Source: Eremothecium cymbalariae DBVPG#7215
Taxonomy: Eukaryota > Ascomycota > Saccharomycetes > Saccharomycetales > Saccharomycetaceae
Length of the DNA stretch: 64,000 nt
Direction of reading: 5' to 3'
Assembly (NCBI RefSeq): GCF_000235365.1
Contig: NC_016453.1
Coordinates: 496,001 to 560,000 of the forward strand
Position 1 is the first letter of the stretch. Every line of letters starts with the position of its first letter. The notes under the pieces were generated by a model. The model was given only the letters and a program-made list of their open reading frames with translations, searched no databases and was not told the DNA's origin. The position numbers were made by a program, and so were the translations under genes. Positions 4,599 to 17,693 of the stretch are shown here, piece by piece.

Positions 4599-4885
4599 GT
4601 ATGTCAATCACTATCAATCAGAAAAAAATCCCTTGACCTCCACAAATAACAACCGGGCACAAGAAACCACACAAACCTAAAAACAGAGACTTATTTACTT
4701 ATCCTTCTAACACTAAGCCTTTTCTCTCCCTCTCTGCTCTCCTTTCTTGTTCTTTTTTTAAAAAAAAGACCATCCTTTTCTGTAAAAGTAATACGCATTT
4801 CTAGAAGACGAACCATAAGACCAACTACGTCCCACACCCCTGCAGGCCGGCCGTGGTGCTCACCACCTCCCTGCTGGTTCAGCCT

Positions 4886-4922
4886 GCCAAGCGGATGCAT
4901 CCAGAGCATGCATCCGCTTGGC
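4886..4922. repeat. inverted repeat, 15-bp arms, 7-nt loop
   Basis: Perfect arms 4886-4900 (begins GCCAAGCGG) and 4908-4922 (ends CCGCTTGGC) flank the loop CCAGAGC. It lies in the MAM3/GPD promoter region. Confidence 0.9.
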
Positions 4923-4931
4923 CCTTCCCGC

Positions 4932-5008
4932 GGGGTTACCCTGCCCGGGCTGTAGTGCAACCAGACACCCGAAGCATCACGGCACCATATCTAAAGCAGG
5001 GTAACCCC
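4932..5008. repeat. inverted repeat, 13-bp arms, 51-nt spacer
   Basis: GGGGTTACCCTGC at 4932-4944 is exactly complementary to GCAGGGTAACCCC at 4996-5008. Confidence 0.85.
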
Positions 5009-5233
5009 ACCCAGCTGGTTGTGCCGTTCGCCGCCAAAAAGAAACGCCGCGCCGTCCTGGCGGCCCTGGTCTTCTCGGCCCGGGTCGGCCCCAACGCTAG
5101 ACCCTGTTCCGTGACCTCCACGCGAGGACAGATCACGACTCACGATACGTCATTTGGTCCCACACAGACGTTTTTTGGCCCCCCGAAAACCCAGCGCCTA
5201 CCAGCTGCGCTAGCAGCTGCGCGTGCGGAGCCA

Positions 5234-5266
5234 CCAGTGGCGGCCGGCCACGCCGGCCGCCACTGG
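5234..5266. repeat. near-perfect hairpin, 15-bp arms, 3-nt loop
   Basis: Arms 5234-5248 (CCAGTGGCGGCCGGC) and 5252-5266 are exactly complementary with the loop CAC. A smaller repeat, CAGCTGC/GCAGCTG with a 4-nt spacer, sits just upstream at 5202-5219. Confidence 0.9.
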
Positions 5267-5396
5267 GTCCGGGCGGGGCAAGAAAAAAAGCCAACCAACC
5301 ATTTCTTCCCATTCTTCGCTGACGGAGACCCCCCAGACGAAACCCATTTTTTATTTCTTATTATTCATTCCACGAAAGTGGAGAACGGCTAAAGAG

Positions 5397-5404
5397 TATA
5401 AATA
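5397..5404 (+). promoter_or_regulatory. TATA box of the GPD gene
   Basis: TATAAATA lies 56 bp before the first usable ATG of the GPD gene and sits in a small inverted repeat (AGAGTAT, AA, ATACTCT; 5393-5408). GPD genes are highly expressed and stress-induced, which fits a TATA-containing promoter. Assignment is by sequence and position only. Confidence 0.65.
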
Positions 5405-5436
5405 CTCTAAGCCAGAAGCACCAGGCAGCTCGAGCC

Positions 5437-5499
5437 ATGATGGGCGGCCTGTTTATTGTATGTTCTGTGGCACGGCTGCTATCAGTATACATCGGCTAG
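5437..5499 (+). promoter_or_regulatory. possible upstream ORF overlapping the first GPD start
   Basis: ATG at 5437 opens a 20-codon frame (MMGGLFIVC...) ending at TAG 5497-5499. It is out of frame with GPD and overlaps the long-form start at 5460. If it is on the mRNA, ribosomes that translate it would bypass 5460 and could restart at 5709. The transcription start is unknown, so its presence on the mRNA is inferred. Confidence 0.35.
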
Positions 5500-6857
5500 T
5501 AACATCGCTCAGAGTTAACAGAAGTCATAGCACCAGGTGCGGATCACGAGCTCTTAATACCGGGACAGCAGGATTATTAGCGGCACAGAGAATTCAGCAC
5601 AGCGCTAATTTGCAATACAAAAGAACTCATAGTAATAGGCCGGCAATCTACTCAGGGCCTCCAGTGTCAGACAACAAAACAGCAGCAAGCAGAGTATCAT
5701 CAGTGAGAATGGCAGGTACAGATAGACTACAACAGACGTCTCAGATTCTTTCACGGTCGACGTCGCAGCAGCTGGTGATGGAACGCCCGTTCAAGGTCAC
5801 GGTGATTGGATCGGGCAACTGGGGTACCACGATTGGGAAGGTTATAGCGGAGAACACGCAGTTGCGTCCGCGGATGTTTGTGTCACGTGTTGACATGTGG
5901 GTTTTCGAGGAGGTCATCGACGGCAAGAAGTTGACGGAGATCATCAACACGGAGCACGAGAACGTCAAGTATCTACCGGGGATCAAGCTCCCTGAGAATT
6001 TGGTGGCGAACCCCTCGTTGGCGGAGTCGGCCAGGGACGCGGACATTTTGGTGTTCAACATCCCGCACCAGTTTCTCCCCCGGGTGGTGGACCAGTTGAA
6101 GGGTCACGTGAAGCCGGGCGCGCGCGCGATTTCGTGTCTCAAGGGCTTTGAGGTGGACCAGGAGGGGGTCAAGTTGTTGTCGTCGTATATCGAGAAGCAC
6201 TTGGACATAGCCTGCGGCGCGTTGTCGGGCGCCAACTTGGCGCCCGAGGTTGCCAAGGGCAACTGGTCGGAAACCACTGTCGCGTACACAATCCCCAGAA
6301 ACTTCCGCGGGACCTGCAGGGACGTGGATCACGTTGTTCTTAAGAGCCTCTTCCACAGACCCTATTTCCACGTGTCTGTCATAGAGGATGTGGCAGGGAT
6401 TTCGGTGGCCGGTGCCTTGAAGAACATTGTTGCCTTGGCCTGTGGCTTTGTGTTGGGCTTGGGTTGGGGTAACAACGCTGCCGCTGCGGTCCAGCGCATT
6501 GGTCTAGGCGAGATGATCAAGTTCGGCAAGATGTTCTTCCCAGAATGCAAGGTGGAGACGTTTTACCAGGAGTCTGCCGGAGTCGCGGACTTGATCACCA
6601 CCTGTTTCGGCGGCAGAAACGTGCGGATCGGCAAGGCCATGGCCACCACGGGCAAGACCGCAAAGGAGTTGGAGCAGGAGCTTTTGAACGGCCAGTCGTC
6701 GCAGGGCATCTACACCACATCCGAGGTGCATGAGTGGCTAGAACGTTGCGGGAAGTTGGAGGACTTTCCTTTGTTTGAGAGTGTGTATCAGATCGTCTAC
6801 TGCGGTGCGTCTATGGAGCGCTTGCCGGAGATGCTTGAGAAAGTTGAGCAAGCGTAG
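5460..6857 (+). CDS. GPD1: NAD-dependent glycerol-3-phosphate dehydrogenase
   Basis: Reduces dihydroxyacetone phosphate to glycerol 3-phosphate with NADH, for osmolyte glycerol and redox balance. The long form is 465 residues. The Rossmann motif GSGNWGTT lies at ~117-124, KGFE and LSGANLAPEVAKGNW carry conserved active-site residues, and GGRNVRIGKAM and LLNGQSSQGI lie near the C terminus. Two in-frame ATGs are plausible. The one at 5460 has a T at -3 and adds ~83 residues that are Arg/Ser-rich with no acidic residue in the first 70, like a mitochondrial presequence. The one at 5709 has A at -3 and gives 382 residues with MAGTDRLQQTSQ, resembling the PTS2-bearing start of S. cerevisiae Gpd1. 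This single locus corresponds to both GPD1 and GPD2 of duplicated yeasts. Codons are much more GC-rich than in neighbouring ARG1. Confidence 0.95.
   Translation: MFCGTAAISIHRLVTSLRVNRSHSTRCGSRALNTGTAGLLAAQRIQHSANLQYKRTHSNRPAIYSGPPVSDNKTAASRVSSVRMAGTDRLQQTSQILSRSTSQQLVMERPFKVTVIGSGNWGTTIGKVIAENTQLRPRMFVSRVDMWVFEEVIDGKKLTEIINTEHENVKYLPGIKLPENLVANPSLAESARDADILVFNIPHQFLPRVVDQLKGHVKPGARAISCLKGFEVDQEGVKLLSSYIEKHLDIACGALSGANLAPEVAKGNWSETTVAYTIPRNFRGTCRDVDHVVLKSLFHRPYFHVSVIEDVAGISVAGALKNIVALACGFVLGLGWGNNAAAAVQRIGLGEMIKFGKMFFPECKVETFYQESAGVADLITTCFGGRNVRIGKAMATTGKTAKELEQELLNGQSSQGIYTTSEVHEWLERCGKLEDFPLFESVYQIVYCGASMERLPEMLEKVEQA
6225..6247. repeat. inverted repeat inside GPD coding sequence, 11-bp arms, 1-nt loop
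   Basis: Arms TCGGGCGCCAA (6225-6235) and TTGGCGCCCGA (6237-6247) are exactly complementary. They encode the conserved peptide SGANLAPE. Confidence 0.85.
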
Positions 6858-7243
6858 TCGGGCGCGGAGAGCCATCCATGTCTTGAGAACAGAAACGGCA
6901 GGGCCTTCTTCCCGATCGAGAACAAGAAGAACTACTGCTGCTGGGAACAGTGAGCAAGGAACAATACGAGTTGGGAAAACATTGATCCGTCATTATTATG
7001 TAATACGTCGTTGGGTAGCACCAAGGAACATCTGTACATTACACTGTGTTGTCGTGTTTGGGGAGGCGGGATCACGGTTTCGGGGTTGGTGTCAAGTTTG
7101 GCGAACTCGCGGGATATATATATATATATAGAATGTGTAGCGGGCGGGCGGGGGTTGTTGATTTTCGTCTGTTTTGTTAATGGTTTTCCCATTGGAATTT
7201 GTTGAGGTGTGGTTCTTTTGAATGGCGGGTGTGTGTCTGTCAG

Positions 7244-7275
7244 TCCAAGCACCACACGTACGTGTGGTGCTTGGA
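7244..7275. repeat. perfect 32-bp palindrome without a loop
   Basis: The half-site TCCAAGCACCACACGT (7244-7259) is followed directly by its exact complement to 7275. It lies between GPD and ARG1. Confidence 0.95.
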
Positions 7276-7309
7276 TCATGGACAGCGACTGTGACAACGA
7301 GTAGATGGA

Positions 7310-7318
7310 ATGAGTCAT
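7310..7318 (+). promoter_or_regulatory. Gcn4 binding site (ATGAGTCAT) upstream of ARG1
   Basis: ATGAGTCAT is the optimal palindromic Gcn4 site, 131 bp before the ARG1 ATG. In yeast ARG1 is a classic target of general amino-acid control, so the site is expected here. Confidence 0.75.
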
Positions 7319-7449
7319 GTTTTTTTCATAAAACGGGTTTGTTGGGTGAAGTATATATATATTTATGTATGTGAGTGAGAGTGTGTAGACGTGGGTAGTC
7401 AGTTTTTATGTTGTATGCAAGGTAGCAGTAGTTTTATCGATAACACAGG

Positions 7450-8706
7450 ATGGTGAACGGTAAAGTTTGTTTAGCGTACTCGGGGGGGTTGGATACGTCG
7501 GTTATTTTGGCTTGGTTGTTGGAGCAGGGTTACGAGGTTGTTGCTTTCATGGCTAATGTTGGGCAGGAGGAGGATTTTGCAGCGGCAGAGGAGAAGGCGT
7601 TGAAGATCGGAGCCAGTAAATTTGTGTGTGTTGATTGCAGAGAGGAGTTTGTTAAGGATGTTCTGTTCCCTGCTGTGCAGGTGAATGCGGTGTATGAAGA
7701 TGTGTATTTGTTGGGGACGTCGCTAGCTAGGCCTGTAATTGCGAAGGCTCAGATTGATGTTGCAGAACGGGAGGGATGCTTTGCTGTGTCGCATGGATGC
7801 ACGGGCAAGGGCAATGATCAGATTCGGTTTGAGTTGGGCTTTTATGCTTTGAAGCCGGATGTGAAGGTTATTGCACCTTGGAGAGAGCCTGAGTTTTTCA
7901 ATAGATTTGCTGGGAGGAACGATCTGCTCGAATATGCTAGTGTGAAAGGTATCCCTGTGGCGCAGACTAAGGCTAAACCGTGGTCCACGGATGAGAATCA
8001 GGCGCATATTTCGTACGAGGCTGGTATTCTGGAGGATCCAGATGTGACGCCTCCCAAGGATATGTGGAAGTTGATCACTGACCCGGAGGATGCTCCAGAT
8101 GTGCCAGAAGATGTGACGGTTGTGTTTGAACGTGGGATACCGGTTAAAATTGTGTACAAGGAGGGCCAGGTTGTGAAGGAAGCTGTTGAACCGCTTGATA
8201 TTTTTTTGACTGCTTCTAAGGTGGCTAGACGTAATGGTGTTGGGAGGATTGATATTGTTGAGAATCGGTACATTAACCTCAAGTCTAGAGGCTGTTACGA
8301 GCAGGCTCCCTTGACTTTGTTGAGAAGAGCCCATGTGGACCTGGAAGGATTAACGTTGGATAAAGAGGTCCGCCATTTGAGAGATCAGTTCGTTACTCCA
8401 ACCTATTCCCGGTTACTTTACAATGGTTCGTATTTCACGCCAGAATGCGAATACGTTAGAGCTATGATTCCTCCTTCTCAGAATACTGTTAACGGACAAG
8501 TCAGGTTACGTCTGTACAAGGGTAATCTGGTTGTGCTGGGCAGATCATCTAGCACCGAGAACTTATACGATGCTAGCGAATCATCCATGGATGAACTAAC
8601 TGGGTTTGAGCCCACTGATACTTCTGGTTTCATTGCTATCCAAGCCATCAGAGTTAAGAAGTATGGCCAATCTAAGATTGACAGAAATGAACCATTAACT
8701 TTGTAG
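7450..8706 (+). CDS. ARG1: argininosuccinate synthase
   Basis: Joins citrulline and aspartate with ATP to give argininosuccinate, the penultimate step of arginine synthesis in the cytosol. The protein is 418 residues (420 in S. cerevisiae). The ATP-binding loop AYSGGLDTS is at residues 9-17. SHGCTGKGNDQIRFE (about 115-129), PWREPEFFNRFAGR and DENQAHISYEAGILEDP are hallmarks of the family. The start ATG is the first of the frame and the alignment with the yeast enzyme begins there. A Gcn4 site lies upstream. ARG1 follows GPD2 in S. cerevisiae too (YOL059W-YOL058W). Confidence 0.98.
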   Translation: MVNGKVCLAYSGGLDTSVILAWLLEQGYEVVAFMANVGQEEDFAAAEEKALKIGASKFVCVDCREEFVKDVLFPAVQVNAVYEDVYLLGTSLARPVIAKAQIDVAEREGCFAVSHGCTGKGNDQIRFELGFYALKPDVKVIAPWREPEFFNRFAGRNDLLEYASVKGIPVAQTKAKPWSTDENQAHISYEAGILEDPDVTPPKDMWKLITDPEDAPDVPEDVTVVFERGIPVKIVYKEGQVVKEAVEPLDIFLTASKVARRNGVGRIDIVENRYINLKSRGCYEQAPLTLLRRAHVDLEGLTLDKEVRHLRDQFVTPTYSRLLYNGSYFTPECEYVRAMIPPSQNTVNGQVRLRLYKGNLVVLGRSSSTENLYDASESSMDELTGFEPTDTSGFIAIQAIRVKKYGQSKIDRNEPLTL

Positions 8707-9146
8707 AGAAACTACTGTACCGATTATAATCCAATGTATATAACATATATTCATATACATATAGAAAATTGTTCAAAGATGCCTTATACTTTTTTGCTTT
8801 TCTCTGACATGATTCGCATCACTTCTGGTCAAAAGTGGTGATATGGATGATCATGGCTATCCTTTCCGCATATGGAACAGCTCGAACAGTCAGAGCCGCG
8901 TTCTTGAACGGATGGATGTCCTTTTAACAAGAACCAAGATACAGGCTATTTTTGAAAACAAGCGCTCTTTCCAAATTGCAAATTTGTTGGAGCAGTCTAG
9001 CAACTCCCTTTTACAAGGGATATTTTTATAAAATATATATATATATATCAAAAAACACACTCCTTCATTCTTATGCTGAAAAGTTTTCATTCGAGTATAC
9101 AAATCAGCTTCTAAGGTTTATTATCATAGTAACATATAGGAAGACC
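8707..9146. other. ARG1-YOL057W intergenic region
   Basis: Contains TA-rich stretches (8731-8764, 9032-9049). The YOL057W frame is open upstream from 8952, but that part is AT-rich, encodes a lysine/isoleucine/tyrosine-rich peptide unlike the family, and is taken as leader. Confidence 0.5.
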
Positions 9147-11237
9147 ATGTCATCTAGTGCACAGCTTGCCAAAGCTCATTTGGCAGACCATCAGCCACCA
9201 ATAGTTATGCTAACAGCTAAGTCTTTCTTCGAGCAATTAACGAAAGAGGAGTCGCTGTATGCCCACTATATGTCGAAGGCATCGCATGCTGGGTCTCGAG
9301 TAGTATTGAGACAAGTTTCTCATGAGAGTGAAGCTATTTTTGACTTGGTGTTAGGTATTCACATTAAATTAAACGGGAAATATGAAGATTCTCAAGAACT
9401 AAATTACTATTTGGAATATGTTTCTCAGTTCTTGAGTAACTTGGGCAATTATAATTCTTTTGGTAATTCCAAGTTCATTCCACGTTGTTCCAAGGAATAC
9501 TTTTATCAATTGATGAAATGTGCGGGGATTAGCAAAGAGTCGAAGGTTAACACGACATCATGCCCAATTAATACATATGAAGAGTTAGTCGAACAAGGGA
9601 TATATAGGATCGATTCTCGATCTTCTTTTTTGGGGTTTCCAACTAGTGGTCATGTTTCAGGATATTATTTCGGTGATGTATCTGAAGAGGATCTTGTTTT
9701 GTTAAAGAAGGAAGTCTTTGGGGCAAAAGATGTTATGCCTGAAAACACCAGAATTAAAAAATTGGACAATGGTGACTTTGAAATCTTAGTGGCATCAGAA
9801 AGTACGTCGACAGCGGACAAGTATCCTGAAGAATCTTTAAAGCTATCCAATGGTGCTACTTTGACTTTTAAATTTGGTGATCATTCTCGTGAGATGAAGT
9901 TAGTTGCCGACTATATTTCAAAGGCCAAAGAGTATGCTGCAAACGATACCCAGCGTCTGATGCTTTCTGAATACGTAGACCATTTTAGAACTGGTAACAT
10001 GAAGTCTCATAAGAGATCTCAAATACAATGGGTCAAGGATTTAGCTCCCATTATTGAGACCAACACTGGTTTCATCGAAACGTACAGAGAACCATCGGGT
10101 ATTATTGGTGAATTTGAATCGTTGGTGGCAATTACAAATAAGCATCGAACGAGAAAGTTCGCTGCATTGGTTCAATCCGCAGGGAAGTTCATTTCTTTAT
10201 TACCATGGGGCCCTGAATTCGAAAAGTCTAAACTTGAACCTCCCGACTTTACTTCTTTGGAAGTGCTCACGTTTGCTGCTAGCGGTATTCCTGCAGGGAT
10301 CAATATTCCCAACTATGATGATGTAAGACTCAATATTGGGTTTAAAAACGTTTCTTTGGGTAACATTGTTAGTTCCACTTTAAGCTCAAAGGAGACCACT
10401 TTCTTACATGCTCAGGATGATGTGCTGTTTAGAAAATATCAAGCTGAATCCTTTGAAGTCCAAGTTGGTATTCATGAGCTATTAGGGCATGGATCTGGTA
10501 AACTTTTATGTGAGTTAGAAGATGGATCCTTTAATTTTGATAAAGAAAACCCCCCAATAGGATTGGACGGGAAGCCAGTAAGTACATATTATCGCAAGGG
10601 TGAGACTTGGGGATCCAAATTTGGCGGTTTGGCCGGACCTTATGAAGAATGTCGTGCAGAGGTTATTGCTATGTATTTGATCACAAATAGGGAGTTGTTA
10701 TCCATATTTGGATTCAAATCTAAAGAAGAACAGGACTCAATCATTTACATTGGATTCTTGCAAATGGCTCGTGCTGGGTTGATGGCCTTAGACTTTTGGG
10801 ACGAAAGCACCCAAAAATGGGGCCAACCACATATGCAAGCTCGTTTTGCAATTATGAAGACATTCTTTAACCATTCTCAAGACAAGAATTTCCTGAAGTT
10901 CTCATTCAGTAGACCAGATTACGATGATTTGAAAATTGAGTTAAAGCAGGATCTCATCGAGACTGTGGGACATGAGTGTATGAAAGATTTCTTGAAACAT
11001 TTGCATATCTACAAGGCATCCTGCGATGTCGAAGCTGGAACTGCGTACTTCAAAGATAGAAGTTCGGTCACACCAGAATTGGCTCGCTTCAAGGCAGTTG
11101 TTAACAAGAAGAAACTACCAAGAAAGCAGTTTATCCAAGCCAATACCTCGGTAAACTCCGAGGGTATCGTAACATTGCACGAATACGAAGCCACGCCGTT
11201 GGGTATGTTGCAATCTTTCACTGAAAGAGAATACTAA
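9147..11237 (+). CDS. dipeptidyl peptidase III (zinc metallopeptidase, M49)
   Basis: Ortholog of S. cerevisiae YOL057W, which releases dipeptides from the N terminus of oligopeptides. 696 residues (yeast 711). The zinc-binding HELLGH is at ~443-448 (as [14 protein letters not shown]), and the second zinc motif EECRAE at ~499-504; together they define family M49. KASHAGSR near residue 45 matches the yeast N-terminal region. I chose ATG 9147 because the extra 65 codons upstream show no family similarity while [15 protein letters not shown] starts about where the yeast protein does. Gene order ARG1-YOL057W-GPM is the same as on S. cerevisiae chromosome XV. Confidence 0.96.
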
Positions 11238-11462
11238 GCAGAATTGGCCCTTAGATATATTAATTTACTGCGTAACTGTTATGTACAAAATGTTATTATA
11301 TATTATATATGTAGTTGGCCTCCTGTTCCGAAACGTGTCCCTGACTGAATATTAATGCGATGAACGTGGAAGATAATCTTAACAAAGTTGAAACGTTGGA
11401 AGGGTATTTTATTAGAAAGAAACGCAAATAATCAAAGTTAACATTTTGACTGGAGGCGAACA

Positions 11463-12404
11463 ATGCCAGGCCATAAAGTTAGTTTCATGCATAAATTATC
11501 TATGACAAATAGTGGAACGTTTAAACTATTCGTATTGAGACATGGTCAGTCGGAATTAAATCACGAGAATATATTCTGCGGGTGGATCGATGCCCATTTG
11601 ACTGAAATGGGCAAACGCCAAGCAAGCAACTCAGCAAGTTTAATAAAGGCGTACTGTCAACAGCACAATATATCACTGCCTAAGATTGGATATACTTCGA
11701 GACTTGTTCGCACCCAAGAAACGATGGAGGTGATGATGAAGACGTTGGGTTTAGATGCTTGTTTCCACGTGACCACAGCCTTGTTAGATGCTCAAGAACA
11801 TGTGCGTAAAGCTAGTAGTGCAAACATGATTCCTATATTACAGACCTGGAGGTTGAATGAGCGGCATTACGGGTCATGGCAAGGGCTACGTAAACCTGAG
11901 GTGTTGGAGCAGTATGGCAAGGATGAGTACAACTTTATCAGACGTAACTATTATGGACGGCCACCAGATGTTGATCTGTCAAAGGAGATGGTTCAAGAGA
12001 ACGATGAGCAAGGTCCTGTGACGGGTTACCACTTCAAGGAACCAAACAGGAAGCTCAAGTATACAGAAGAAACTGCCGAGCGGATACAATTCCCTCAGAG
12101 CGAATCGTTATGCGATGTTGTTCGCAGACTGACGCCATTTTTGGTTGAAATAATTCTGAGGTTCGCGAAACAGTACGGGGGAAGCGCCATCGTAGTGGGA
12201 CATGGAAGTTCTGTGCGTTCCATATTAAAGGTATTGCAGAATCTTTCTGATGATGAGATTAAAGATGTGGAGATACCAAACGGAGTTCCGTTATTACTCG
12301 AGCTGGATCTACAGGACAATTCCGTCGTGAAGCACTTTTATTTGGATCCTGAACTAGCCAAGGATGAAGGAAAGCGTCGTGAGAGCAGAGTAACAAAAGA
12401 GTAA
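11463..12404 (+). CDS. GPM3: phosphoglycerate mutase family protein (GPM2/GPM3 type)
   Basis: Histidine phosphatase/phosphoglycerate mutase fold, 313 residues. The active-site VLRHGQSELN (about 25-34) carries the phospho-accepting histidine; TSRLVRTQET, WRLNERHYGSWQG and VVGHGSSVRS supply the other catalytic arginine, glutamate and histidine positions. The last motif differs from the AAHGNSLRA of the main glycolytic enzyme Gpm1, and the protein is longer, so it fits the Gpm2/Gpm3 group, whose yeast members lack clear mutase function. The pair GPM2/GPM3 arose by genome duplication; this single gene stands for both. Confidence 0.9.
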   Translation: MPGHKVSFMHKLSMTNSGTFKLFVLRHGQSELNHENIFCGWIDAHLTEMGKRQASNSASLIKAYCQQHNISLPKIGYTSRLVRTQETMEVMMKTLGLDACFHVTTALLDAQEHVRKASSANMIPILQTWRLNERHYGSWQGLRKPEVLEQYGKDEYNFIRRNYYGRPPDVDLSKEMVQENDEQGPVTGYHFKEPNRKLKYTEETAERIQFPQSESLCDVVRRLTPFLVEIILRFAKQYGGSAIVVGHGSSVRSILKVLQNLSDDEIKDVEIPNGVPLLLELDLQDNSVVKHFYLDPELAKDEGKRRESRVTKE

Positions 12405-12701
12405 TATTATCATATATAATGTCTGTGAGTACTGAGATTAATGATATATATATATATATACATATACATATGTATATGTATGTATGTTTAGTTGTATTAT
12501 TTAATAATATTGATAGATCTGCATAACCCGAAAGCAAATTATGATGAACGTAACAGTCGCACAAATAAAGAAAAACTAATGGCCAAACAGAAGTAACAAC
12601 ACCATCGATATTTAAAGAAGATCCTATCGAGCATTCCGAGCGGTAAAAGATGCATCATATTGCGGTTATCAACTATTAAATGCCGGGCCGACACACAAGA
12701 C

Positions 12702-12793
12702 ATAAAATAAAATAAAATAAAATAAAATAAAATAAAATAAAATAAAATAAAATAAAATAAAATAAAATAAAATAAAATAAAATAAAATAAAAA
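12702..12793. repeat. AAAAT pentanucleotide microsatellite, about 18 copies
   Basis: Uninterrupted repetition of the 5-base unit over about 92 bp between the converging GPM3 and RPN4 genes. Confidence 0.95.
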
Positions 12794-13150
12794 CAGAGTC
12801 TGTTGGTATGAAATATGCAATATTTGCGTATGCAAAAAAAGGTCATGGTAACGTAGGATAGGATAGAATAGAATAGGAAAGGTAGGTTAGATTATGTTGC
12901 TAATTCAGCTCTTAGTTCCTCATCCGAATAATAATGGAAGGACGAACAATAATGGAAAACATTTCAACAGTATATTAACGTATAATAGTAATAATGATCA
13001 TAAAAGAATGTAACTTCCAAAATATGTGGGTTTTAATTTATAAATCCTTGAAGAAAAAGGAATAATGATAATAAGAATAAAAAAATAATTATAATATTGT
13101 CTTGTGATTTGATTTTACCAGTTTCATCTTGCATCTGTTGATATTCTCAG

Positions 13151-13174
13151 ACACACACACACACACACACACAC
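13151..13174. repeat. AC dinucleotide microsatellite, 12 copies
   Basis: Uninterrupted AC repeat just 3' of the RPN4 stop codon. Confidence 0.95.
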
Positions 13175-13211
13175 TGGTTTCTGTCGTCCTAGTTTTTCTT
13201 TCATATTTTCA

Positions 13212-15391
13212 TCACGCTTCAACATATTCCACGTTTTCCTTAGCAAATTGAATGACCTTTTGAGCTTCTTCACCAACCAGTTCATGTTTGACTTTTACGT
13301 GTCTACTCAACGCGTCTCCGCGTGAAAATGTACGCTGGTAGCCCTCTGTTCCGTGGTCTCGAATGCAGATTAGGCAGCGGAAGATTTTCTTTTTGGCTGC
13401 GTGGATCGTCTTTTGGTGCCTGATCAAGTCATAAGGCCTGGAGAATTTTTTGAGGCATAGTTGTTTGGTAATTGAGTTGATCAACTGGCAGGTGTGTTCC
13501 TCGTTGACATCGTTTGACGACGCATTGTGGTGGTGGTGGTGGTGATTATACCCGCCTTGGGTTTGTGCGGAAGCGGGACCAGAGGTGCCGCCACTACTAT
13601 TAGCCGAAGCAGTCGAAGCTACAGCGGCTACGGAAGGGGTGGACGCCTTCTTGGCGACATGTGGAGTAGTACCGGTCACATTAGACTTCCGCCTACTTGC
13701 TGCTGCACGCCTTGTTGTTTTGGTCAATGTGGTTGCACTGGTTGCAAGCACCTTTGTTGCAGGGGCAGACGTAGTGGCTGCTGCCACTGCCGCTTCTCCA
13801 GTCACTGAGGTTGCAGCAGCGGCGGAACTATTGACGGTGCCTAACTGTTCTGTTTTGGCCTCGGCGGCGGCAGCGGCGGCGTTCGCAGAAGACTTGGTAT
13901 TCTTCTTGACTGCCGGCATAGGAACAGAAACAAGAACTGAATCCGAGGCTGCTGTCGAAACAAGTACTGCAGGCGGTGGGGACGGAACAAGCAATTTGGT
14001 CTCAAAAACAGTGGGCTCTCTTGATAACCGATCCGTGCAGATCACCATGCTAGATTTGCGCTTGCGCTTGCCCTCAAACAGGGTATCGTCGTCGAAAACA
14101 GAGGAAGAGTAGTCATCCTCGTTACCATCGTTGATAAACTCGTCACCGCCTTCCACAATCACGTTAGCATCAACGAATGAGTCTGTAGCCAAAAGCGGAC
14201 GAGAACACGAAGAAATCGAAGGGTTAAAATTAATCTTCCTCGTGCGATCAAAGATCTGGGAATCGTCGTCATCGGCCTCGTCGTCGTCACCGTCGTCACC
14301 GTCGTCTTCGCCAGCGACATCAGCACCAGCAAGGGCAGCGCCAGCACCGTTGTTGTCATCATCGTCGTAATCCTGCTCGTAATCCTCTCCGAGAAGCTCC
14401 AAGGAGTTGGAATCGTCGTCGTCGTCGTCACTCAGATCATCGTCAAATTCTTGATCAAATAGCTGCTGCATCGGATCGTGCATGTGAGACTGAGAGTTGT
14501 GGATGTTGTCCTGCAACGGCCAAAAGTAGTTCATCTTGTGGCTGTTCTCCTCCATGTAGTAATCACAGATGTAATCCTCATCATCCAGAAGATCCAGCTC
14601 TTGTTGTTGTTCAGCAATTCTTGTCTGATGGTCCTCGATCAGATTGTATTTACTAGGGGACAGTTGGTGTGCGTTCGCAGCTGCACCTGGAGCACCACAC
14701 TGCGGCGGCGCTGCAATAGGCGTCGACGCAGCCGGGGCGGCACATCCTGCCGAAAGCCTGGGAACGAAAGGATTACCCATCATCATCACGCTGTTCAGCG
14801 ATATTGTGGGCTGCACGGGCGTTAGCCTATTTGCAGTAGCGGCCGCCGGAAGCTGCTTGCCAGGCTGCTGCTGCAGCTGCTGGAATAACTGCATCAGCTG
14901 TTGATGCTGCTGCTGCTGTTGCTGCTGCTGCTGGCCGTTGGATGGGTGGTTGTCAAGGTCGGATCAGCATACTTGCTGAAAATATTGCTGGCAACACAAC
15001 CGTCGCCCGCCGCCACGTAGCCAGCATGTGTATCGTCTATCACTGGGGTATTGTTATCGATAATCGTTTGCGAAGGCATAGAACAATGATCATTAGCTGT
15101 TGCTGCCGCTGCCGCCGCGGCTGCGGCAGCAGTGAACGCATTATTATGGGGATGATGAGCATTATGAGTATGGGGATGCTGATGCTGATGCTGATTAGCC
15201 GTCGTGAAATGTTTGAAAATAGGACTCGAAAGTTGCTGGAAATCCTGATGTTCCTGGGGGGGGAGAATTAATAGATCTTCAAAAAACTTGTTCGAATGAC
15301 TACTAGGATTCCAGTGGTCTGGAATTCTATTAAGCTCATCATCCAAAACATCTGCTAAACTTCTTCTCAATTCTAATTCTGCCGTAGACAT
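13212..15391 (-). CDS. RPN4: Rpn4-like proteasome transcription factor, frame broken near 14945
   Basis: C2H2 zinc-finger activator of proteasome genes, itself short-lived in yeast. Two frames together give about 720 residues (yeast 531). The N-terminal frame (15391-14894) starts MSTAELELRRSLADVLDDEL like yeast Rpn4 and contains KYADPTLTTT, a signature of that protein. The second frame continues with Gln-rich, acidic (DDLSDDDDDDSNS) and Ala/Thr-rich stretches and ends with the zinc fingers (HTCQLINSITKQLCLKKFSRPYDLIRHQKTIH, split CxC/HxH pattern; FRCLICIRDH...HVKVKH). The two frames are offset by one base; the sequence lacks one base relative to a continuous frame, most simply in the G run at 14944-14946 (C run on the coding strand), just before a CAG repeat. 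The first stop and the second ATG overlap as TGATG at 14892-14896. RPN4 and OSH2 are neighbours in S. cerevisiae (YDL020C-YDL019C). Confidence 0.88.
15101..15131. repeat. imperfect hairpin in RPN4 alanine-run coding sequence
   Basis: Outer arms of 9 bp (TGCTGCCGC and its complement), one T:T mismatch, inner 4-bp stem and a 3-nt loop, within the GC-rich alanine-coding stretch. Confidence 0.6.
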
Positions 15392-16736
15392 AGTATAAGT
15401 GTGATATATAGACCGCTTTTTTTTATTATTTTTAATCTTAAGAGTTTTGAAACGAAAATTCGATCAAATAACGTGTGATGTTTCTTCAAATAGTGGTGAG
15501 AAAGGTAGTAGGGGGAAAAATATTATTACTATTAGTTTTTTCGTGAGAAAATTCCAAAAAAACAAAACAAAAAAAAGCCACTTAATTATGAATCAATGGA
15601 TCTTTTTCTTCTTCCTTTTTTTTGAGTTATAATCTTCAAAAAACCTGCAAAAAGACAACTATGCCTGTATGTTTAATAACGTGGTGCTGTTTGTTGCTAC
15701 CTTTGCTGGTCAATAAATTGTGTGCTTTATTCCGCAGGTCAGGACAGGACAGGACAACGCTTGTTGCGAACTTTGGAAAAAAGTTTATATGAATTGTAAT
15801 GGTGTATGATATGATATTGGTCTATGGGAGGGTGGGGGACGAGATGGGGATGGGGATGGGATGAGGATGGGGATGAGACGGGGTGGGATGGGGTCAATGG
15901 ATGGGATGATGCGCAATGAGAGAGAGAGTGTGTGTGGGGAGGGATATAGTGTTTGGAACTGTATACAAAGTATAGTAAACCTGCTTCAGGGGGGACGCAA
16001 AAGAGGTATATATGGGATAGAAGAAGAAGAAGGAAAGAAAAAAGATGGATATTATTATCGTAGAAAACAAGAAGAAAAACAAGAAAATTTTTAAATTCTG
16101 TTCTGGTATAAAAGAAGAGAAAGGGAATGGCAAAGGCTATGGTGATGGTCCAATTATGTTTCCTTTTGGCTTTTTCGCCCTCTGTCTTTTCTTCGGTCGG
16201 AACCGCAGAATTTTTTGTTTAAAGTTCGATAAAGCCGAACTTTTCTGAAGAGGCCAGAGATTTCACTCTTCATGGCTTTGCTTTTTTTCACAGTTGTTAT
16301 CGCGGGATCAAGATTGGTAATTAGTAATAGTATTGTAGACAACGTAGTTGTGATCGTGGATACGGACGTGGACACGACGTGGATGGTGGTTTTAAAAATA
16401 ATCTTGCTCTTGCGCTGTTACTATGGGCTGTGGGATTGGGATCTTCTTTTTTGGATCCTCCGGGGTCAAGGAACCGTGTAGAAGAAAAAGGACACTTGTT
16501 TTTCCTAAAACGGTAATCCCCTTGACGAAGCGGGGAGGGTGGGGAGCAGGAGGGGGAGGGAAGGGGATGAGTAATATAATAGGAGACAATAGTTCGTTGG
16601 TAGTGATGGGTGAGAGAAACTTCTGGAAGGGCCGGCGGCACAGCCAAGCTGCAGGCAAGCAGCGGCTTGCCTGCAGCTTGGCTGCTTTCATGTTGCTTTC
16701 GTGGGCCCGGACACCACGCCGCCGCCGCGGCGGCGG
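15392..16736. other. RPN4 upstream / THI20 downstream region
   Basis: About 1.3 kb. The part nearest RPN4 has T-rich and A-rich tracts; 15840-15935 is strongly purine-biased with GGGAT/GGGATGA repeats; 16020-16100 is A/G-rich. From about 16620 it turns GC-rich and enters the inverted-repeat cluster. I looked for a remnant of the TenA domain on the minus strand and found none. Confidence 0.6.
16641..16684. repeat. hairpin, 20-bp perfect arms, 4-nt loop
   Basis: Arms 16641-16660 and 16665-16684 are exactly complementary around the loop AGCG. It lies just downstream of the THI20 stop codon. Confidence 0.95.
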
Positions 16737-16737
16737 C
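16718..16737. repeat. perfect 20-bp GCC/GGC palindrome
   Basis: GCCGCCGCCG followed directly by its complement. Next to it, a CGGCGGCTAC unit is directly repeated about 2.5 times (16731-16758). The THI20 stop codon lies in these direct repeats (16737-16739). Confidence 0.9.
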
Positions 16738-17693
16738 TACCGGCGGCTACCGGCGGCTCCTGGCTGCTGCTGCTGCTGCGCAGCAGCAGCAGCCAGGAGC
16801 CCAGGCCCAGGCCTGGGCCGTGTCACATGGTACATGTGATTGACCGGACCGTTCTCGCGTACTTTTGTCACCGCCAACCACGGTTCTAGCTCGATTGTGG
16901 TTTGCACGTACTGGAGTCCGCCGCGCACGGCGGACTCCAGTACATCGCCGCAGGCGAGGTTGCTGGCTATAGCCGAGGCTAACGTGCATCCGGTGCCATG
17001 TGTGTTTTTCGTTTTTATCCACCGCGATTCAAACACCTTCGTACCGTCTCCGCTGGCCGTTACCAATATATCTGCTACGCGCCGTTGCTGCAGCTCCGAA
17101 GCGGAATTGCTGTCCGGCGGCTTGTCCAGCGGACAATGGCCTCCCTTAAGTAAGATGTTTGGGGCTTCTGTTGCAACCAGTAGCTGTTTCGCAATGTGTT
17201 CCATTTCTTGTACGGAGGATACTTGCTGTGTTTCATCTCTTCCGAGCAGTGCGAGAGCCTCCGGGATGTTGGGTGTAACCAAGGTGGCTCGTTTCAACAG
17301 GTGGAGCAAGTGTGGGTCTCTGCTGCTTGCGAAGAGCACGGCTCCTGACGTAGCCGTCATGACGGGGTCGACGACCAGCTGCCCCTTGAATTGGAAGTCG
17401 TCCAGGATGTGCAGCAGTGTTTGGGTGGCGGCTGGTGTGAGCATTCCAGTTTTGATGACGTCGACTCTCATGTCGGACATTATGGCTTGCAGGATGTGAG
17501 CGATTGTGTCCGGGGGTGTTGCGGACACCGCGTGCACGGCACGCGGTGTCTGGACGGTGATGGCGGTAATGCATGTCATTGCGTAGCATCCGTGAGCTGT
17601 GATAGTTTTTATATCGGCTTCGATGCCTGCTCCGCCGCTGGGGTCAGAGCCAGCGATGGTGAGCACCGTAGGTGTTGTAGGGTCTGTATGCAT
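16737..17693 (-). CDS. THI20: hydroxymethylpyrimidine (phosphate) kinase, ThiD domain only
   Basis: ThiD phosphorylates HMP and HMP-phosphate in thiamine synthesis. 318 residues. TIAGSDPSGGAGIEADIKT (about 12-30) binds substrate; DPVMTATSGAVL, ILLKGGH and KTKNTHGTGCTLASA (catalytic cysteine) follow. In S. cerevisiae Thi20 (551 residues) the ThiD half continues into a TenA/thiaminase II half. Here the homology ends at GPVNHMYHV, and the last ~27 residues are a Pro/Gly/Ala/Gln-rich tail (RPRPGPGLLAAAAAQQQQQ) read from inverted repeats at 16755-16819. No TenA sequence follows. The gene is unusually GC-rich. ATG 17693 is where the alignment begins. Position between a GPM/RPN4 gene and OSH fits the ancestral place of YOL055C. 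Confidence 0.9.
   Translation of the reverse strand: MHTDPTTPTVLTIAGSDPSGGAGIEADIKTITAHGCYAMTCITAITVQTPRAVHAVSATPPDTIAHILQAIMSDMRVDVIKTGMLTPAATQTLLHILDDFQFKGQLVVDPVMTATSGAVLFASSRDPHLLHLLKRATLVTPNIPEALALLGRDETQQVSSVQEMEHIAKQLLVATEAPNILLKGGHCPLDKPPDSNSASELQQRRVADILVTASGDGTKVFESRWIKTKNTHGTGCTLASAIASNLACGDVLESAVRGGLQYVQTTIELEPWLAVTKVRENGPVNHMYHVTRPRPGPGLLAAAAAQQQQQPGAAGSRR
16755..16801. repeat. hairpin, 22-bp perfect arms, 3-nt loop
   Basis: The longest arms in the window: 16755-16776 (starts GGCTCCTGGCTGCTG) and 16780-16801 with loop TGC. It lies within the 3' end of the THI20 frame and encodes alanine/glutamine runs. A 16-bp perfect palindrome (GGCCCAGG and its complement, 16804-16819) adjoins it. 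Confidence 0.95.
16908..16943. repeat. hairpin inside conserved THI20 coding sequence, 16-bp perfect arms, 4-nt loop
   Basis: Arms 16908-16923 (GTACTGGAGTCCGCCG) and 16928-16943 flank the loop CGCA. On the coding strand it encodes VLESAVRGGLQYV, which belongs to the ThiD core rather than to an insertion. Confidence 0.95.
17524..17550. repeat. hairpin inside THI20 coding sequence, 12-bp perfect arms, 3-nt loop
   Basis: Arms GACACCGCGTGC (17524-17535) and GCACGCGGTGTC (17539-17550), loop ACG; encodes QTPRAVHAVSA. Confidence 0.9.

Follow-up and report, generated by a model that had tools for sequence, protein, structure and literature searches.

Clustered perfect hairpins with short loops in the genome of Eremothecium cymbalariae: probable footprints of fold-back synthesis

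A 64-kb stretch of the Eremothecium cymbalariae genome (C5:496001-560000, hereafter the window) contains a series of long inverted repeats with perfect arms around the genes GPD and THI20, and the question that this locus raises is what process makes so many sequences pair exactly with their own neighbours. The original prediction offered two answers, that the hairpins are functional elements or that they reflect a mutational process that perfects quasi-palindromes. The mutational answer fits better because the arms are largely unrelated, the four window regions searched have no true second copy, their position relative to genes varies, and the excess requires short loops and long arms. We think it probable, with a likelihood of about two in three, that the hairpins were left by intrastrand template switching, here called fold-back synthesis.

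An excess of long perfect hairpins

The window was scanned for perfect inverted repeats and also searched with a repeat finder using a minimum length of 12. All nine hairpins of the original prediction were recovered in place with perfect arms in the scan, and eight of them also with the repeat finder, the 11-bp hairpin falling below its minimum; the two palindromes that it listed are both exact. Numbers were compared with dinucleotide shuffles inside 500-bp blocks, which preserve local base composition (40 shuffles for the window), counting non-overlapping, non-periodic hairpins with loops of no more than 10 nt after removal of AT-only and periodic arms. The window contains 11 hairpins with arms of at least 11 bp compared to 0.175 in the shuffles, 10 with arms of at least 12 bp compared to 0.075 (two of these, at 12458 and 44069, are AT-rich), and seven with arms of at least 14 bp compared to none in 40 shuffles. 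Real and shuffled counts are therefore far from equal, and the expectation that 15-bp perfect arms with short loops are rare by chance is borne out. The 13-bp pair separated by a 51-nt spacer is also above chance (one seen, none in 60 shuffles of 4840-17550), and the window is nearly empty of hairpins between and beyond its two clusters.

Beyond the window we sampled 26 10-kb stretches (labelled L0xx) of the 9,669,424-base, eight-contig genome, comprising C1:1-10000 and 25 places from a systematic list of 100, of which 20 are on contigs 1 and 2 and five on contigs 3, 4, 6, 7 and 8. The first 21 stretches contain 16 hairpins with arms of at least 12 bp and loops of no more than 10 nt, where 0.42 are expected from 12 shuffles, and these too are clustered, with seven of the 21 stretches bearing hairpins, five of them in L013 and four in L025. 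None of the five later stretches has arms of 12 bp or more, and three carry one 11-bp hairpin each. Fifteen of the 16 hairpins are independent, as L007 and L010 share one through 2465-bp segments of contig 1 (L007:4144-6608 and L010:1-2465) that are 100% identical, lie in opposite orientation, and carry the same hairpins. The description of the hairpins as lying around GPD and THI20 is thus correct for the window, but too narrow, with similar clusters present in other parts of the genome.

Two of these regions have further features. An apparent inversion of the loop between the identical contig-1 segments was rejected because the segments are oppositely oriented; an open reading frame (ORF) in the L010 copy resembles, by eye, a homeodomain protein, and the segments may be mating-type cassettes. 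Upstream of a gene of the FtsH type (AAA/peptidase M41), the region L013:2140-3650 is crowded with further hairpins that are imperfect and with direct repeats of short length, and is denser in repeats than the count of perfect arms indicates.

Could this be ordinary background, given that inverted repeats exceed shuffles in most genomes and that runs of CAG or GCT codons form hairpins by chance? In a survey of 118,019 genomes (PMC13155455) an excess over dinucleotide shuffles is general among most eukaryotic phyla and across spacer lengths, with means of 1.91 repeat bp per kb for eukaryotes and 4.2–4.8 for Protista, Metazoa and Plantae. Under the survey definition (arms of at least 10 bp, spacers of at most 8 nt), which our script may not reproduce in every detail, there are 6.03 repeat bp per kb in the window and 3.75 in the 26 stretches, and the total of 4.20 is not above the values for those three groups; moreover, some members contain GCTGC runs (16755-16801; L013:2301-2343). 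Because the total density is within the published figures it is not remarkable, and it is the make-up of the repeats that stands out. The eukaryotic perfect repeats of the survey are for the most part AT-rich and have no spacer, and few remain when the AT-rich ones are left out, whereas 25 of the 46 repeats here have an arm GC of at least 0.5 and, among the 37 with an arm GC of at least 0.2, 19 have loops of 3–4 nt. With AT-only and periodic arms already filtered from the excess counts, ordinary background is a very improbable explanation.

Loops, arms and the fold-back step

When the window and the 26 stretches are pooled, the hairpin excess is limited to loops of 0–7 nt. With arms of at least 10 bp, and with nested repeats unmerged, 44 such hairpins are seen and 3.5 expected from 10 shuffles, compared to 16 seen and 11 expected for loops of 8–40 nt; counts are highest at loops of 3 and 4 nt (10 each). 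The over-represented arm lengths are 10–22 bp. The arm-length spectrum was determined for loops of 0–7 nt in 1-kb pieces split at a GC content of 0.47, with the periodicity filter applied only to arms of at least 8 bp. In the 301 kb below this value, arms of 5, 6, 7 and 8 bp are seen 1458, 406, 127 and 40 times with 1395, 380, 112 and 32 expected, while arms of at least 11 bp are seen 19 times with about one expected. The 23 kb at or above it, a fraction that includes the window's own clusters, has a mild excess at 5–7 bp, a clear one at 8 bp (11 compared to 1.2), and a flat tail that extends to 22 bp. One-step writing of stems predicts such a flat tail, whereas point mutation with selection predicts an excess of medium lengths first, and the tail therefore suggests that long perfect arms have often been written in one step; the 8-bp excess is compatible with some stepwise perfection in the GC-rich pieces. 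A process that perfects quasi-palindromes thus seems right in being mutational, but tidying is probably not all that it does. A search that tolerates mismatches gives 45 hairpins, of which 38 pair perfectly, five contain a single mismatch and two contain two, although it required the inner four pairs to be intact and misses inner mismatches.

We propose that, in the course of replication or repair synthesis, the 3′ end of a growing strand would fold onto that strand at a few complementary bases, copy about 10–22 nt of it, and then rejoin the template. A single event would leave a perfect inverted repeat with a loop of 0–7 nt, and the same fold-back step could later re-perfect arms that had mutated. 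Copying of this kind would give short loops and long perfect arms with largely unrelated sequences, in single copies, at arbitrary positions relative to genes and also within ORFs.

The closing base pairs provide a further hint. Among hairpins with arms of at least 9 bp and loops of 2–4 nt (L010 omitted as a duplicate), the loop is closed by C:G in 15, G:C in four and T:A in six, whereas arms of 5–6 bp closed by G and C are balanced (147 C:G and 153 G:C, n=300). The lean of 15 in 19 has a binomial p of 0.0076, in a test chosen after looking, and loops of 5 nt or more have no such lean. Because it is independent of the strand that is read, the lean hints at a role for hairpin stability in a single strand, to which the preference for 3–4 nt loops and, post hoc, the C:G closing pair both point.

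The class of mechanism is known, and what is new is the occurrence of clustered long, perfect, GC-rich hairpins with short loops in a yeast. A single template switch can produce a perfect stem, and among candidate switches 4-nt loops are enriched and 3-nt loops under-represented (Monttinen and Loytynoja 2022, PMC8794818); the one-step perfect stems and the favoured 4-nt loops are shared with our hairpins, but that work concerns RNA genes with ancestral reconstruction, and ours concerns clusters at yeast protein genes with unpolarised events. In S. cerevisiae genes, template switching homogenises the arms of inverted repeats (PMC8604942), and these are likewise short, perfect and in yeast coding DNA, although with arms of 7–11 bp (16 bp in one gene) compared to the clustered 12–22 bp arms seen here. 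Quasi-palindrome mutations occur in highly transcribed yeast DNA upon loss of RNase H2 (PMC3820800), similarly with local hot spots and extended arm identity, but these were observed in reporter assays in the absence of RNase H2, whereas an RNase H2 subunit gene is present in E. cymbalariae. Among the literature matches listed, no title or opening of an abstract reports hairpin clusters in Eremothecium or Ashbya.

We also considered a family of short mobile palindromic elements, comparable to the GC clusters of yeast mitochondria or the REP elements of bacteria. The clustering, the similar size and a few shared short arm words are compatible with such a family, an 8-bp word being common to the hairpins at 4886 and 51001 and a 7-bp word to those at 4886 and 16641. 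The arms are otherwise unrelated, and whole-genome searches with four window regions, together holding 10 of the 12 window features, gave no true second copy: three regions yielded none, and 16600-17000 matched only a CAG-type tract on contig 7. Because the search passes over simple repeats and words that are very common, the lack of copies is not absolute. For the regions tested a dispersed repeat family is rejected, in agreement with the original prediction; two of the hairpins also lie within the THI20 kinase coding sequence with the frame unchanged, and a mobile origin is extremely unlikely. On contig 7, L004:2870-2925 is a CAG/CTG-rich inverted repeat similar to the 16755-16801 hairpin.

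Hairpins in and around genes

The window hairpins and the two genes that they surround are listed in Table 1. By Pfam, the genes near hairpins encode a CNNM-domain protein, GPD, argininosuccinate synthase, a peptidase M49, a histidine phosphatase and phosphomethylpyrimidine kinase (THI20); gene names lacking a Pfam basis, such as MAM3 and SEC10, are presumed from sequence resemblance. Some hairpins are found within genes and others upstream or downstream of them, with no fixed position. A perfect tandem array of 18 copies of ATAAA (12702-12792) lies downstream of the histidine phosphatase gene, at a distance of about 300 bp.

Table 1. Inverted repeats of the window and the two genes near which they cluster
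Feature	Position	Strand	Context	Further data
Perfect hairpin, 15-bp arms, 7-nt loop	4886..4922		Between CNNM/MAM3-like gene and GPD	DNA fold -18.3 kcal/mol
Perfect inverted repeat, 13-bp arms, 51-nt spacer	4932..5008		Intergenic, CNNM/MAM3-like gene to GPD	
Perfect hairpin, 15-bp arms, 3-nt loop	5234..5266		Upstream of GPD	DNA fold -22.3 kcal/mol
GPD, NAD-dependent glycerol-3-phosphate dehydrogenase	5460..6857	+		PF01210, PF07479; third-position GC 0.70
Palindrome, 11-bp arms, 1-nt centre	6225..6247		Within GPD coding sequence	May be chance
Perfect 32-bp palindrome, 16-bp arms, no loop	7244..7275		Between GPD and argininosuccinate synthase gene	Fold -16.2 kcal/mol
Perfect hairpin, 20-bp arms, 4-nt loop	16641..16684		Downstream of THI20	Fold -28.1 kcal/mol
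Exact 20-bp GCC/GGC palindrome	16718..16737		Last base at end of THI20 stop codon (16737)	
THI20-like phosphomethylpyrimidine kinase, lacking TenA domain	16737..17693	-		PF08543; third-position GC 0.63
Perfect hairpin, 22-bp arms, 3-nt loop	16755..16801		Codes Ala5-Gln5 tail of THI20	Fold -31.8 kcal/mol
Exact 16-bp palindrome	16804..16819		THI20 C-terminal tail	
Perfect hairpin, 16-bp arms, 4-nt loop	16908..16943		In THI20 kinase coding sequence	Frame intact
Perfect hairpin, 12-bp arms, 3-nt loop	17524..17550		In THI20 kinase coding sequence	Frame intact
Perfect hairpin, 15-bp arms, 3-nt loop	51001..51033		Intergenic, outside the interval of the original prediction	Fold -17.8 kcal/mol

Within coding sequences the hairpins were compared with permutations of synonymous codons inside the ORF (2000 trials, 800 for SEC10). 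In THI20, whose reading frame is uninterrupted through its hairpins, the longest arm reached is 13 bp, compared to 12, 16 and 22 bp observed; the 16- and 22-bp arms are reached in none of the 2000 trials and the 12-bp arm in four. The 14-bp arm in an L025 ORF with no Pfam match is likewise never reached in 2000 trials, and the 12-bp arm of SEC10 in six of 800. The GPD hairpin is weak alone, with arms of at least 11 bp arising in 25 of 2000 trials. The Ala run that the SEC10 hairpin encodes lies in a variable linker and is without a clear insertion (compared to one homologue only, from L. fermentati).

Both genes have protein features of their own. The TenA domain (PF03070) is missing from THI20. 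The A. gossypii and A. aceri orthologues, both of 316 residues, are also without it, but E. sinecaudum retains it (537 residues), and from these sequences TenA appears to have been lost within the genus. The GPD ORF begins with an N-terminal extension of about 100 residues (window 5460-5790), the Pfam dehydrogenase match starting at residue 112; the extension is possibly a targeting sequence, or a later start may be used.

Selection for functional structures, either in DNA (cruciforms, nucleosome exclusion) or in RNA (mRNA stability, termination, translation control), could account for the perfect pairing and the strong predicted folding of nine window hairpins (-13.6 to -31.8 kcal/mol as DNA), and several hairpins are intergenic and close to gene starts or ends. 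In S. cerevisiae, moreover, short, close inverted repeats are enriched and linked to poly(A) regions (PMC6420913). Those repeats are AT-rich and tied to poly(A) sites in 3′ regions, however, whereas the E. cymbalariae hairpins are mostly GC-rich (arm GC is at least 0.5 in 10 of the 12 window repeats, unlike the AT-rich arms of the S. cerevisiae 3′-end repeats), have little common sequence, occupy no single position relative to genes, and in some cases lie within ORFs. No Rfam family matches the window at gathering score, and hence no described structured RNA; no tRNA was found there by ARAGORN with the bacterial code. Selection on structure alone, furthermore, would not limit the excess seen in ordinary sequence to arms of at least 10 bp, and we regard a functional origin as unlikely.

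The intact genes also bear on whether the hairpins are sequencing or assembly artefacts, such as fold-back chimeras or mis-filled gaps at GC-rich sites. Hairpins rich in GC are difficult to sequence, and the genome paper dates from 2011. Nonetheless, conserved ORFs remain open through the hairpins (THI20, SEC10), hairpins of the same form with AT-rich arms are present (L013:3142-3183, L025:6345-6378), and the identical contig-1 segments carry the same hairpins, although those copies could have been co-assembled. Artefact is thus a very unlikely explanation.

GC-rich islands and repair synthesis

The window has a GC content of 41%, close to the 40.3% reported for the genome (PMC3276169), and its GC is unevenly distributed. 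Among 21 window genes GPD has the highest third-position GC and THI20 the second highest. With the window included, the 16 of 324 1-kb pieces that have a GC of at least 0.50 hold 15 of the 35 hairpins whose arms are at least 11 bp long; without it, nine of the 24 hairpins fall in the 15 pieces, among 260, that have a GC of at least 0.47. The second sample is trusted more because the window was selected for its hairpins, and in it four of the 15 GC-rich pieces hold a hairpin compared to 13 of the 245 others (Fisher p 0.011). GC-rich pieces in L008, L011, L012, L015 and L020 have no hairpins. The islands are thus favoured, yet are neither necessary nor sufficient for hairpins, and the clustering in such islands, raised by the original prediction as a check, is seen in the window and, less strongly, outside it.

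Several observations weigh against fold-back synthesis or its regional bias. The island preference in the independent sample is only modest, and with the hairpins masked and a cut-off of 0.50 the p value is 0.11. No event is polarised, the comparison being confined to E. cymbalariae DNA, in which an imperfect or absent ancestor is not seen. In an alignment of THI20 with 119 homologues (120 listed of 7999, minus THI20 itself), the residues encoded by arms show no more derivation than the remainder of the protein (a value as low arises in 116 of 299 circular shifts), and the protein data therefore do not show that hairpin formation changed THI20. Loops of 3 nt are as common as those of 4 nt, compared to their under-representation in PMC8794818. 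The duplicated contig-1 segment is counted twice in most pooled counts, and the hairpins are unusual by comparison with published surveys rather than with another yeast analysed with the same script. Finally, repair genes are present, with matches to RNase_H2-Ydr279, XPG_I (four) and Mre11_DNA_bind, and an SAE2-like match only at the cut-off. Loss of these repair genes was considered as a cause and rejected, with SAE2-, RNase H2-, XPG- and MRE11-type matches all found; gene presence does not, however, prove normal repair activity.

If fold-back synthesis is the source of the hairpins, a bias towards GC-rich islands may reflect where it acts. We speculate that these islands are sites of frequent repair synthesis, at which biased gene conversion raises the GC content and fold-backs are also produced. 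A stronger version, which we offer only tentatively and think rather doubtful, is a regionally focused mutator, in which repair synthesis in GC-rich islands would snap back repeatedly and write perfect hairpins into promoters and genes, such that the GC enrichment, third codon positions included, and the hairpins would be two scars of the same synthesis.

Template switching has so far been known from assays, population variants and RNA genes, and dense clusters of still-perfect hairpins in a natural genome would allow its tract length, loop preference, regional rate and decay to be measured. Fold-back synthesis is also relevant to the way in which protein tails and promoters acquire sequence in a single jump. 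Should the mutator exist, hairpin density could be used to map repair or recombination activity, and if the link to GC-rich islands holds, GC-biased repair and fold-back synthesis, both much debated, would be tied to the same places in the genome.

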